DNA of 20,679 nt from a virus, in IMG/VR virus record IMGVR_UViG_3300032116_001575, positions 1 to 20,679 of that record. One strand, written 5' to 3'. The translations under genes were made by a program, and so were the position numbers. Position 1 is the first letter of the stretch. Each line of letters opens with the position of its first letter. A model generated the notes under the pieces. It searched no databases. It had not been told where the DNA came from and saw only the letters and a list, made by a program, of their open reading frames with translations. This document shows, in pieces, positions 1,641 through 17,760 of this stretch.

Positions 1641-2974
1641 TGGCTGAGTTCTCTCGTGACGAACTGCTGTACGGCTTCGAGCGATCCGCAGTTGCCCTGC
1701 CTGGTGCAGCGCAGGCGCTGATTCGCCGCCGCCTCGGAGACGAGTACGAAGGCACCCCCGTCGAGCAAATGCTCCAGGGGTCGCAGCTGCTGAACTACGC
1801 CCGCCAGCGATTACCGGAAAACATCGCCCAGACAAAAGCTGGCAAAGCACTGACAGATCTGCTTCCAGAGCGAGCGGGAAAAGTTAAAGAGGCCATTGGC
1901 AGGATCCCCCTCGGCGGCTTCGGCGAGCAAGAGGTTCGCCAACTCGACGCCTATCGAGACGGCGATCCGGCGCTCGACATGGAGGGCGATGCCGAGGTCA
2001 GGCGTAACACGGTTCGCGTCGGCAAATTTCCTGTGCCCGGCGGTGACGTGCCGACAGGTGACAGCTTCCGCGCTGCCGCGACGCAGGCCGCTGGTGTCGG
2101 AGTGGCGGATCTTGCGTCCGATGGACTCCGTAATATCTGGTGGTTCCTGAATGCCCCGCAGGCTCTGACGCAGCTCGCGATGCTGCAGGGGACCCAGAAC
2201 GCGGCCCAGGACTTCCAGGCACCGGGGCGCCAGGCACCGCTGATCAAGAATCGGACGGTACGGATGGCGACGACCCTGCCGGCGTTGGTCGGCATATCGC
2301 TTGCAGTTGGAAATGCGTACCGGCAGCCGGGCTACAAGGCAGCGGTGCCGAGTGAGGCTGACCCCACGCAAACTGCTGATCCCCTGGCTGAGTTGGGATC
2401 GCGTTACTTCCTCGGCAGAACCGGAGCCCTGCTCCCCTATGACGAATTCGTCAAGGAGCGTCCTGATGTTTCCAAGGGCGAATACGACGCCTACAAGTCG
2501 TACCTCTTCGGGAACGCGATGCCGCTGAAGGCCACGACTGAAGGAATCCACGGCCCTGAGGTGACGTTCTTAGGTAAGAGCATTCCCATCGCGACAGGGG
2601 TTCTGCCTGCGGTGGCTGCGGTGATTGGTGGGCGCTTTGGCGCACGCAAGGCTGGAGCCCGTCTGGCCGATCGAGGCGATCTGAATCGAGCGGCTGATCT
2701 CAGGGATGAGTGGGTAGACCTCAAGCGTGAGTCAAAGAACCCTGATTCCGGTATCCAAGAAGCGGATATCGCAGAAGCCTATAACCGCTATGAAGACCAG
2801 CAAATGAAGAATGAGCGTGAAGTTGCTCTGCAGACAATCCTGTATAGCAGCCTCGGCATGGGTGGTACGGCTATTGCAGGGCAGACTTTAGAATCAATCC
2901 GTCGAGCCCTCAAAGGGAAAGCACCTGTTGAGGATTCTGGTGAGGAGCAATCCTCACTTCCTGCCTTGAGCTGA
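1640..2974 (+). CDS. Large virion-like protein with three hydrophobic segments
   Basis: This 444-residue protein is coupled to the upstream gene by a one-base TGATG overlap. Residues 1-160 are soluble and charged. Hydrophobic segments lie at about 209-227, 315-333 and 399-415. Between the first two is a conserved-looking stretch (about 255-312) with 'GRTGALLPYDEF', 'RPDVSKGEY' and 'GIHGPEVTFLGKS', which I loosely associate with virion proteins of cyanobacterial phages; I cannot verify that. The last 30 residues are hydrophilic. No catalytic motif is visible. The several membrane-type helices in a gene among structural genes suggest a protein that enters or crosses the host membrane. The next gene starts two bases after its stop. 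Confidence 0.65.
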   Translation: MAEFSRDELLYGFERSAVALPGAAQALIRRRLGDEYEGTPVEQMLQGSQLLNYARQRLPENIAQTKAGKALTDLLPERAGKVKEAIGRIPLGGFGEQEVRQLDAYRDGDPALDMEGDAEVRRNTVRVGKFPVPGGDVPTGDSFRAAATQAAGVGVADLASDGLRNIWWFLNAPQALTQLAMLQGTQNAAQDFQAPGRQAPLIKNRTVRMATTLPALVGISLAVGNAYRQPGYKAAVPSEADPTQTADPLAELGSRYFLGRTGALLPYDEFVKERPDVSKGEYDAYKSYLFGNAMPLKATTEGIHGPEVTFLGKSIPIATGVLPAVAAVIGGRFGARKAGARLADRGDLNRAADLRDEWVDLKRESKNPDSGIQEADIAEAYNRYEDQQMKNEREVALQTILYSSLGMGGTAIAGQTLESIRRALKGKAPVEDSGEEQSSLPALS

Positions 2975-2976
2975 CG

Positions 2977-3303
2977 ATGGCATACGGATCTTTTGCAGGC
3001 CTGGATGGTTACGTTGGTGGATTCCAGCCATCCAGGGAAGGCGCTGACGCCCTGGGCGGGATGGCTGCCAAGAAGTACGAGACCGGTGCAGCACTTGCTG
3101 GTAATGCCCTGGCGTCGCAGGCGCAGCTGCGGGCCCAGAAATATCTAGCCGACGCGCAGATTGAAGCAGCTCAAATCCAGGCAGACGCGGCGAACGATCC
3201 ACTCAAGCTTGGTCTAGGCCTACTTGGGCAAGTCGGTGGTGCATTTGCTGGCGGCTTCGGTGGCGGCATCGGCAAGGCGGCAGGTGCCAAGTGGTTTGCA
3301 TAA
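2977..3303 (+). CDS. Small glycine-zipper protein (108 aa)
   Basis: The ATG at 2977 follows the preceding TGA after two bases, so coupling is likely; no clear ribosome-binding site is seen. Residues 30-72 form an Ala/Gln-rich amphipathic helix, and residues 79-103 are a Gly-rich hydrophobic segment with repeated GxxxG spacing, a pattern typical of helices packing in membranes. It ends in a short basic/aromatic tail. One such segment plus a helical stem fits a small virion protein entering the host membrane, or less likely a holin; a typical holin of this size would have two or three membrane spans, and only one is visible here. The family is not recognised. Confidence 0.6.
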   Translation: MAYGSFAGLDGYVGGFQPSREGADALGGMAAKKYETGAALAGNALASQAQLRAQKYLADAQIEAAQIQADAANDPLKLGLGLLGQVGGAFAGGFGGGIGKAAGAKWFA

Positions 3304-15366: not shown

Positions 15367-15927
15367 CTAGCGCCGCAGTGTAGGCAACTTGCAGCGGGGT
15401 AGAACCTTGCGCAGATCATGAATGAGATCGTCGGCAAAGATGCCATGAAATTCAAGGCGACCCCTTTGCACCAGAGCAGGCGTGTGACCAAGGTCAAGGG
15501 CCCAAGCGCGGAGATGCTGAGTTTCTTCGGCGTCAGCCCAGGAACGCAGGATCGCTTTGTTCTTGGCCACTGTCCCTGTATCGCACCAGAGTGCCGCTAA
15601 CCCTTGAGCGCCAGCAATCTTGAGAACTTCAGGCGTAAGGCGACGCTGATCGCGGAAGTAAAGCAGCTCGTAAACCCGGTAGAGATCAGGGCTGTGGACG
15701 CGAATGCGGCGATCGTCGTAGAAGCCGCTGCCCTGGACAATGTCAGAGGCAGCCTCGAGCTTGCCATCATGCGCCTTGTGCAGCATGCGCAGCTGATGAT
15801 TCAAATAGGTCAGATCCGTCTCCGGCCGCTTGATCTCGAGCCAAGGGCGCTTCTTCTGACCTCGCAAGCTGATCGTTCCCTTGCCCAAGCAGTAGCTCAG
15901 TGCGAGCGCTACGAATTGCGCTGACAT
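15367..15927 (-). CDS. LAGLIDADG-like protein, second unit with degenerate motifs (186 aa)
   Basis: This minus-strand frame has ATG 15927 with an AGAGG-type site about six bases upstream, so it may be made separately. It parallels the 253-residue frame before it: 'YELLYFRDQRRLTPEVLKIAGAQGLAALWCDTG' (about 86-118) corresponds to 'YNLLYPSGE..ISQTALDMLGAKAAAWLWAEG' there, the pattern of LAGLIDADG_2-type homing endonucleases ('YnLFYp.gkK.iP....lt..aLA.WfMDDG'). The first motif position is 'LSYCLGKG', with Lys16 where the catalytic Asp should be, and the second has CDTG for DDG. Nuclease activity is therefore doubtful. It may be a separate partner protein or the C-terminal half of a frameshifted fusion. 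Confidence 0.65.
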   Translation of the reverse strand: MSAQFVALALSYCLGKGTISLRGQKKRPWLEIKRPETDLTYLNHQLRMLHKAHDGKLEAASDIVQGSGFYDDRRIRVHSPDLYRVYELLYFRDQRRLTPEVLKIAGAQGLAALWCDTGTVAKNKAILRSWADAEETQHLRAWALDLGHTPALVQRGRLEFHGIFADDLIHDLRKVLPRCKLPTLRR

Positions 15928-16528
15928 CCCAGACCTCTTCTTGGAATAGATGGATGCGTGATGCAGGTGCGTAGGGGGCGAGTGCCTTGCGAATCTTGCT
16001 GGCCTCTCGCTGCTGGAAGCGCAGGCGCGGATTGATGTGGGTATCGGCCAGGGTGGCTTCCGCGCCGGTCAGCACCCCGATCCACTGGCAAACGCGCAGC
16101 GCCTCATCAAAGGTTTTGCCAACGCGAGCGAGATCGACGTAGCCCTCGGGATACACCCGCGCGCCTTCCGCCCAGAGCCAGGCCGCTGCTTTTGCGCCCA
16201 ACATGTCGAGCGCGGTCTGACTGATTTCGCGCTCGCCGCTGGGGTAGAGCAGGTTGTAGACGGGGCGCAGTTTGGTCGAGGAGACCCGAAAGCGCAGCAC
16301 CGAAGTGCTCCTGCCGTTGGACCTGGGCTTGGTTTTGTAGTGAACAATTTGCGCCTGAGTCGGCACAAATTGACGGAATTCTGCAACCTTCTCCTCGAGG
16401 AAGGCCGACTCCGAGGCCCCAGCGGTCAGGGTCAGCTGGATATAACCCCCGCCGGGACTGCGATATGGGACGAGGCTGCCGTCAGCCAGAAGTAAGCCGA
16501 GCAGCCCGCGGACGTCTGCAGCGTCCAA
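15767..16528 (-). CDS. LAGLIDADG-like protein, first unit with intact first motif (253 aa)
   Basis: The minus-strand TTG at 16528 is the first possible start after an in-frame TAG, and the motif LLGLLLADGS already begins at residue 9, so the start cannot lie far downstream. D16 fits the catalytic Asp of LAGLIDADG_2-type enzymes, while the second motif region reads 'AWLWAEG' (117-122) instead of a DDG motif, so one catalytic acid may be missing. Residues about 60-190 follow the family layout with 'LRPVYNLLYPSGE' and a last 'IRKALAPYAP' segment. The unit matches the next frame (15367-15927) along its length, so the two arose by duplication. Residues after about 200 overlap that frame and are Ser/Ala/Gln-rich, probably non-native. 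Confidence 0.62.
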   Translation of the reverse strand: MDAADVRGLLGLLLADGSLVPYRSPGGGYIQLTLTAGASESAFLEEKVAEFRQFVPTQAQIVHYKTKPRSNGRSTSVLRFRVSSTKLRPVYNLLYPSGEREISQTALDMLGAKAAAWLWAEGARVYPEGYVDLARVGKTFDEALRVCQWIGVLTGAEATLADTHINPRLRFQQREASKIRKALAPYAPASRIHLFQEEVWDVSAIRSARTELLLGQGNDQLARSEEAPLARDQAAGDGSDLFESSAAHAAQGA

Positions 16529-16529
16529 T

Positions 16530-16557
16530 TTTTCACACTACGCAACCTGCTTATAGT
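16530..16557 (+). promoter_or_regulatory. Candidate promoter of the major capsid gene
   Basis: TTTTCA (16530-16535, four of six matches to TTGACA) and TATAGT (16552-16557) are 16 bases apart. TATAGT sits in the hairpin-forming GCTTATAGTAAGC (16549-16561). It is the best match to a standard sigma-70 promoter I see here, 22 bases before the GTG start. Confidence 0.45.
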
Positions 16558-16564
16558 AAGCCCT

Positions 16565-16570
16565 AGGAGG
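16565..16570 (+). promoter_or_regulatory. Ribosome-binding site AGGAGG deciding the capsid start
   Basis: AGGAGG is eight bases before the GTG at 16579. The later ATG at 16618 has no such site, so GTG 16579 is the better start. Confidence 0.65.
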
Positions 16571-16578
16571 CACATTGA

Positions 16579-17760
16579 GTGCCCTCTCGCACACTTGTCA
16601 CTCGGACATTTCATCCCATGTGGATTGACAATGACTTTCCGAAGCTGCTAGGTGCCGAGCTTTATCGCCCCCATCCCTCGTACATCGTGGAGATGGCGGT
16701 CGAGCCCGTGGTTGTGCACGATTTCGCCAAGCAACCCGGCCAGACTGTTCAGCTTGATCGCTACCGCTTCTGGGGTGCCCCTGGCACTAAGGACAGCCGT
16801 GAGCGCACTGCTGATCAAACTCTCGGCACTGCATCTTCGCGCTCGATCGTGAAGGACAAGGTGCTGGTGACTCTCAAGGAGTACACCGGCCCCGCTGACC
16901 CGACCGATACCTCCGCCCCCTCCACCTTCAAGGTGGCCCGGGAAACCCTGCTGACTGCTCAGCGCCTGCTGCTGGACACCGGCAACCTGAATGTCTTCCA
17001 CCAGTCGATCGGTTCTCTGACCCTGCTGGATGACTACCGTCGTTGGCGCGATCGCGTTTTCGCCGACGAGCTGTTCAAAGCTGAAGCCAACGGCGCAGCT
17101 GACAGCACCAAGGGTGGTTACTTCTACCCCCTGAAGAAGGCCAAGGCAACCTCTGCCCCCTTCCTCACCTACGCAGCCGGCGAATCCGCCAAGTTCGATG
17201 TCAAGACCGACCTCCTCGAGGTGGTCAAGGACATGCGCAAGCGGAACGTCCCCACCTTTGCTGACGGCTACTACCGTTGCATTGCGGATCCCACCGCAAT
17301 GATGCACCTGCGCCAGAACGATGCGTTCCGTGAGATCGCTCGTTACGCAGGCAACGGCATGGTCAACCCCATGCAGCCCGAACTGGCCCCTAACGCCAGC
17401 TTCTTCCGTGGCATGGGCCCTGCCTACGGTCAGGCCGGCTTCGTTGCTGGTCAGCCCGTAATGCCTTCTGGCTTCCTGTTTGAGGGTGTGCGTTGGTTCG
17501 AAAGCACCAACCTGCCCGAGAAGAGCCTTCAGGTGACCATCACTGACGCTTCCATCAGCAGCGCAGTGACCACCGCTGCTCCGATGCTGTTCTTCGGCCC
17601 TCAAGCCGTGGGCGTTGGCATTGGCGGCAATAACGCTCAGATCCTGCTGAACAACAACGACGACTTCAGTCGTTTCATCATCATGATCTGGTCGCTCTTC
17701 GCCGGTTTCGAAATCCTGAACAAGGACTTCGTGACTGTGGCCTACTCGTTCGTGTACTGA
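16579..17760 (+). CDS. Major capsid protein (N4 gp56/P22-like, HK97 fold)
   Basis: GTG 16579 is chosen for its AGGAGG site and gives 393 residues. The protein matches the N4 gp56/P22-like capsid group by pattern: an N-terminal arm; 'DKVLVTLKEYTGPADP' (about 95-110); a helical spine ('ARETLLTAQRLLLDTGNL'); 'GYYRCIADPTAMMHLRQNDAFREI' (about 230-255); then 'GFLFEGVRWFEST' and 'FFGPQAVGVGIGGNNAQI'. It builds the icosahedral shell by self-assembly around the scaffold. Codon use is strongly biased (mostly CTG for Leu, many C-ending codons), as expected for the most abundant virion protein. It has its own promoter candidate and is followed 16 bases on by a putative decoration gene. Confidence 0.85.
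   Translation: MPSRTLVTRTFHPMWIDNDFPKLLGAELYRPHPSYIVEMAVEPVVVHDFAKQPGQTVQLDRYRFWGAPGTKDSRERTADQTLGTASSRSIVKDKVLVTLKEYTGPADPTDTSAPSTFKVARETLLTAQRLLLDTGNLNVFHQSIGSLTLLDDYRRWRDRVFADELFKAEANGAADSTKGGYFYPLKKAKATSAPFLTYAAGESAKFDVKTDLLEVVKDMRKRNVPTFADGYYRCIADPTAMMHLRQNDAFREIARYAGNGMVNPMQPELAPNASFFRGMGPAYGQAGFVAGQPVMPSGFLFEGVRWFESTNLPEKSLQVTITDASISSAVTTAAPMLFFGPQAVGVGIGGNNAQILLNNNDDFSRFIIMIWSLFAGFEILNKDFVTVAYSFVY

Follow-up and report, generated by a model that had tools for sequence, protein, structure and literature searches.

The window, by which we mean the whole 20,679-base virus record that was analyzed, carries two overlapping minus-strand genes, U1 and U2, that we read with modest confidence, somewhat above an even chance, as a free-standing homing-type endonuclease and its dead partner, retained by vertical descent beside the major capsid protein (MCP) gene; that U1 cleaves, what it cleaves, and what U2 contributes are parts of this reading that we infer. 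U1 would be a LAGLIDADG_2 endonuclease that is complete as a monomer and has both of its catalytic acids, and U2 would be a full-length homologue lacking those acids, started at its own ATG within the end of U1 and probably translated by translational coupling to it. The cassette appears to have been kept divergent from the MCP gene at a position occupied in a sister clade by an unrelated NUMOD4/HNH endonuclease gene. We suggest that U1 may cut the capsid locus or its neighbor in related co-infecting phages, which would favor the linked allele through gene conversion or exclusion, and that U2 may bind DNA or U1 and so tune or protect. Free-standing homing endonuclease genes near essential phage genes, and their collaborative homing with neighboring introns, have been described (PMC10448857), as has the use of a phage endonuclease in competition against a co-infecting phage (PMC11620839). 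Such free-standing endonucleases are usually viewed as selfish and sporadic. Here, one capsid-side position is held by either of two unrelated endonuclease types, cleanly split between sister clades, and U1 is always accompanied by an overlapping, strongly selected U2 that is predicted to be nuclease-dead. The two small proteins and the defined adjoining gene offer a direct way to test why a phage keeps such an endonuclease and what purpose a dead LAGLIDADG partner serves.

The coordinates, frames, and starts first proposed for both units were confirmed. The U1 frame is open on the minus strand from a TTG at 16528 to 15767, and the U2 frame, which is +1 relative to that of U1, from an ATG at 15927 to 15367; U2 is preceded by an AGAGG, the Shine-Dalgarno-like site of U2, at 15938-15934. 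U1 consists of a core (15893 to 16528) and a C-terminal tail overlapping U2 (15767 to 15927), the latter made up of a conserved S.IRSARTELLLG segment and then a variable hydrophilic run. Beyond a divergent intergenic region (16529 to 16617) lies the uninterrupted MCP gene on the plus strand (ATG at 16618, to 17757; 380 amino acids), whose product matches phrog_1357 (E=1.9e-20) and shares 68.5% identity with that of Synechococcus phage S-EIV1. The window virus is related to cyanophage S-EIV1, through which alone a host would be assigned. In the isolated-phage collection, there was no DNA match to the window and no protein match to U1 or U2, and S-EIV1 was reached only through the MCP. Scans of viral contigs recovered 93 distinct U1 sequences with an adjoining U2; these are uncultivated contigs, and several of the comparisons that use them count kindred sequences. 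As predicted, the pair sits beside the capsid gene, with the MCP as its divergent neighbor in 90 of the 93 loci (those where an MCP was found).

Profile searches placed U1 in the Pfam LAGLIDADG_2 family (PF03161; curated cut-off, 25 bits) with 28.7 bits (E=1.5e-6) over profile columns 4 to 164 of 168, and U2 gave a weaker match under the cut-off (18.1 bits, E=0.0027). The family assignment made in the original prediction stands for U1 by this search and for U2 by its homology to U1 (hhalign probability 97.3, E=1.7e-11, 189 columns), at 19% identity in the profile alignment, and by its modeled fold. AlphaFold (AF2) models had a mean pLDDT of 84.9 for U1, whose tail is of low confidence, and 93.0 for U2, and in Foldseek searches I-SceI and I-WcaI rank first for both (U1 with I-WcaI, E=3.6e-10; U2 with I-SceI, E=2e-6). 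In these predicted structures, each unit is by itself a complete two-motif pseudo-dimer with a whole-chain I-SceI-like fold. On this ground, half-subunits of one dimer were rejected. A PDB sequence search with U1 and U2 returned nothing meaningful, and neither PHROGs nor NCBIfam gave a family for either. As for the pair having arisen by tandem duplication, the homology is borne out and the duplication itself is plausible, but it is unproven because U1 and U2 are not clearly closer to each other than either is to the LAGLIDADG open reading frames (ORFs) that lie inside capsid-gene insertions.

The two chains differ at the positions where LAGLIDADG homing endonucleases carry an acid in both motifs. 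D16 of U1 (codon 16483-16481) is found in 93 of 93 loci and E121 (16168-16166) in 88; the remaining five (L061, L062, L065, L075, and L080) have Q, which counts against U1 as an endonuclease. The WAEG of U1 had been taken for a loss of the second motif. Glutamate at the second-motif catalytic position can be catalytic, as in I-AniI and I-OnuI, and since known enzymes use it there, WAEG in U1 is not a loss. K16 of U2 (15882-15880) lies at the same distance from its start as D16 does in U1, and this position holds K, V, R, and others, with a single D among 93 loci; at T117 (15579-15577), Q, R, T, and others occur and never an acid in the 93 loci, and the neighboring D116 is kept in 92. The predicted pairing of one chain with catalytic acids and one without them was thus upheld at both motifs. 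Median dN/dS was 0.053 for U1 and 0.056 for U2 (pairs with dS of 0.1 to 0.9); the top U2 pairs, among them L005 and L006 with L071, go up to 0.70. This strong purifying selection on U2, together with both acids in U1, argues against the decay that the diverged motifs had suggested, and we regard U2 as a maintained protein that is predicted to be nuclease-dead.

Among the 80 MCP relatives surveyed, in a ranking that favors intact MCPs, those with more than 900 nt upstream fall into two sets: 26 have U1/U2 and no HNH gene, and 42 lack U1/U2 and have an HNH-type ORF in the slot without exception (42/42). The HNH-slot ORF has the same orientation as U1/U2 and starts about 104 to 126 nt from the MCP ATG, or 335 to 351 nt away in three loci in which an Rfam group I intron lies just before the MCP match. 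Two of these ORFs, both on the minus strand (L164, 4541-4894; L175, 4505-4894), were typed with Pfam; both contain NUMOD4 and one also a weak HNH_3, and the others were assigned by homology to these two. H72, H98, and N110, the candidate HNH residues, show no variation among 12 of these proteins. On the MCP tree, in which many branches are weakly supported, the distribution of U1/U2 and HNH needs a single change, rather than the sporadic, mobile distribution with decayed copies of a homing gene; no decayed U1/U2 copy was seen among the loci found by a search that favors intact copies. The slot pattern resembles one switch followed by stable inheritance and differs from that of a freely homing gene. 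In S-EIV1, nothing matches U1 or U2 and no endonuclease is annotated in the slot; the gene there is therefore not essential in the wider group. Homing genes usually pass through a cycle in which they decay after invasion (PMC13405050). Because the pair is stably retained without observed decay, unlike in the usual homing cycle, it may be domesticated, and it likely either benefits the virus or has a second function, for instance in regulation.

The distances of U1 and U2 correlate with each other (Spearman 0.62), and more weakly with those of the MCP (0.42 and 0.46 for U1 and U2). L051 and L071 have an MCP 96% like that of the window and a U1 that is only 63% alike. Exchange of the cassette relative to the MCP was considered and rejected for this comparison, as most flanking genes are also well diverged, which makes a strongly conserved MCP the simpler reading.

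Alternatively, U1 and U2 could be a domesticated pair of DNA-binding regulators, either WhiA-like or in the manner of an I-TevI-type autorepressor, acting on the divergent U1-MCP promoter region. Vertical retention under purifying selection and the divergent position adjoining a structural gene would suit such a role, and WhiA is among the Foldseek matches of U1 and U2. An alignment of 13 relatives adds short conserved boxes, CCCTA-like and TATAGTA-like, in the intergenic region. However, D16 and E121 of U1 are nearly invariant, which a pure regulator would not need, and the slot of the sister clade holds a nuclease of a different fold; we consider this explanation unlikely. An apparent GC hairpin can also be seen in the intergenic region, with a stem that varies among the relatives and a pairing judged by eye only.

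If U1 is instead a nuclease, U2 might serve as its self-protection or antidote subunit, occupying or masking the target of the cassette itself. U2 always follows U1 and diverges along with it, and in the predicted model it keeps the fold without both acids. At 19% identity, though, U2 is far from U1, so it is not obvious that both would bind one and the same site, and we hold the antidote role to be distinctly improbable. Equally speculative is the proposal that U2 either protects the capsid locus of its own virus against U1 or directs U1 elsewhere, which would make the overlapping pair a self-immune weapon for a capsid allele. Were this true, such a weapon pair would sit in the slot that the sister clade fills with an HNH weapon.

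The MCP gene of the relatives is often split, mostly by group I introns, and U1 and U2 could be imagined as a trans-acting maturase pair that aids their splicing. The MCP is split in 26 of the 90 U1-bearing loci with an MCP, at roughly ten sites between codons 4-6 and 292, which are too many for a single LAGLIDADG target, a point against our preferred endonuclease reading. Rfam scans covered 17 of these 26, as loci or as whole records, and Intron_gpI matched at or above the gathering score in 15 (L004, L030, L033, L038, L039, L040, L044, L049, L058, L073, L080, L012, L013, L057, and L122, the last as record G010). The L008 locus fell below the gathering score, with a weaker match in its record G002 (38.9 bits, E=6.4e-10), and L069 had no Rfam match at the gathering threshold. 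A LAGLIDADG_2 ORF is nonetheless present in the L069 insert, and others lie in MCP insertions of L004 and L044. By analogy, the splits in L009, L015, L016, L046, L048, L050, L056, L061, and L075 may be introns too. The MCP gene can be described as a hotspot for group I introns: L039 has as many as four in a single gene, and several inserts are only ~250 nt long. These split MCP genes and their introns also count among the evidence for the endonuclease reading.

In favor of a maturase role, no intron-like split was found among 80 HNH-slot loci retrieved regardless of MCP, three "split" HNH-side MCPs having been set aside for want of an intron-sized insert, and the 26 of 90 differ from 46 distinct HNH-side MCPs with a Fisher p of 6e-6, or 0.002 after stricter thinning, values that are not phylogeny-corrected. 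The bI3 maturase is also among the structure matches. Nevertheless, introns are present in the HNH clade as well (L199, L211, and L218), U1 and U2 lie outside the introns, and 64 of the 90 MCPs are intact with U1/U2 retained. The long records G001 (84,980 bases) and G003 (85,211 bases) contain U1/U2 and no Rfam group I intron, which counts against an essential maturase role, and the window, with its intact MCP, likewise has no Rfam intron match. We consider a maturase pair a very unlikely explanation.

Comparison of the homologues supports the original prediction of two separate genes: none of the 93 distinct viral pairs is fused into the single frame that would have spoken against it, and the U2 ATG is conserved in every locus. 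In 92 of the 93, this ATG lies in the +1 frame relative to U1 and its offset is almost constant, and the two genes overlap by 65 to 161 nt. The exception is the deepest relative, L023, whose U1 and U2 overlap by only four bases (ATGA) and whose U2 N terminus (MTAQFV..) is kept although U1 does not extend beneath it, for which initiation at the U2 ATG is the best explanation. The four loci in which only one unit gave a strong match are located at contig ends or close to them. A Shine-Dalgarno-like GGAG, GAGG, or AGGA occurs at -17 to -4 of U2 in 82 of the 93 loci, but it is no independent proof because it lies inside U1 coding sequence. Since the layout recurs in 93 distinct loci, it is not due to chance or sequencing error, and this conserved arrangement with dN/dS of about 0.05 also rules out a pseudogene.

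Both frames of the overlap are under selection. Across 57 representatives, the synonymous fraction among same-residue pairs was 0.23 in U2 codons 1-8 and 0.32 in codons 9-16, and mostly 0.6 to 0.7 elsewhere. U2 codon 8 encodes R, H, L, or T, yet 56 of 56 sequences retain the Arg of the U1 frame; U2 codon 11 ends in C or T, and the Leu of the U1 frame is likewise retained in 56 of 56. Within U2 codons 15-29, synonymous resampling predicts U1-frame stops in 30.1 of the 56 sequences, and they were seen in 2, a count that carries no independent-sample probability as the sequences are related. From this dual-frame constraint, we conclude that U1 very probably includes the S.IRSARTELLLG tail as a translated segment under selection. 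Production of a single protein of 386 residues (16528-15367) by a +1 shift joining U1 to U2, which the fixed +1 relation in 92 loci and the suppressed synonymous change around the junction might recall, is almost certainly wrong given the universal U2 ATG, the conserved U2 N terminus of L023 over a 4-nt overlap, and a selected U1 frame that stays open past the U2 start and the constrained 16 codons.

Among known systems, U1 and U2 most resemble I-SceI and I-WcaI in their whole-chain fold (Foldseek TMq of about 0.7 for both), in having two motifs ~105 residues apart, and, for U1, in the acids at both motif positions. They differ in sharing only ~10-14% sequence identity with these enzymes and, in U1, in having E rather than D in the second motif; to our knowledge, I-SceI and I-WcaI are single genes with no dead partner. 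WhiA resembles U2 as a LAGLIDADG fold without catalytic residues, whereas U1 keeps its catalytic acids. WhiA has a C-terminal helix-turn-helix (HTH) domain, and we know of no nuclease partner for it; no Pfam HTH family passes its cut-off in U1 or U2, and the tail of U1 is low-confidence in the model. The LAGLIDADG maturases bI3 and I-AniI share the fold, and the clade's association with group I introns recalls them, but they are intron-encoded, unlike U1 and U2, which persist in intron-free long records. Free-standing phage endonuclease genes beside introns, including the collaborative-homing case of cyanophage psbA (cited in PMC10448857), are alike in that an endonuclease gene adjoins an essential gene with group I introns in relatives. 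Here, in contrast, the gene is a LAGLIDADG pair, it is present also where the neighboring gene is intron-free, and the introns of relatives occupy several sites of that gene. Finally, gp210 of phage PhiPA3 (PMC11620839) is a homing-type endonuclease with a possible co-infection advantage; it differs in its HNH fold, in being intron-encoded, and in being experimentally shown, U1 and U2 being known here from sequence and models.

Several minor observations were made around these loci. Between U2 and a 267-amino-acid gene, the minus strand of the window holds a small ORF (15150-14986) ending in ..RRKFLVFCQENPWADECRIYDP, and similar endings occur in L010, L017, and L020. A gene for a sigma-70-type factor lies upstream of the MCP in HNH-clade viruses on the plus strand (L164, 3114-4070; L175, 2322-3269); regions 1.2, 2, 3, and 4 were recognized by Pfam in L164, and the L175 factor was recognized by eye. 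In L009, an HNH_3 ORF with weak helix-turn-helix matches (2766-3290, plus strand), encoded on the strand opposite to the MCP, separates U1 from the main MCP exon. U1-type sequences also appear in a genome collection, in metagenome-assembled genomes labeled Euryarchaeota or Phycisphaerae (L300, L301, and L302). These are probably mis-binned phage contigs, and L302 equals the viral-contig locus L021 in length and range.
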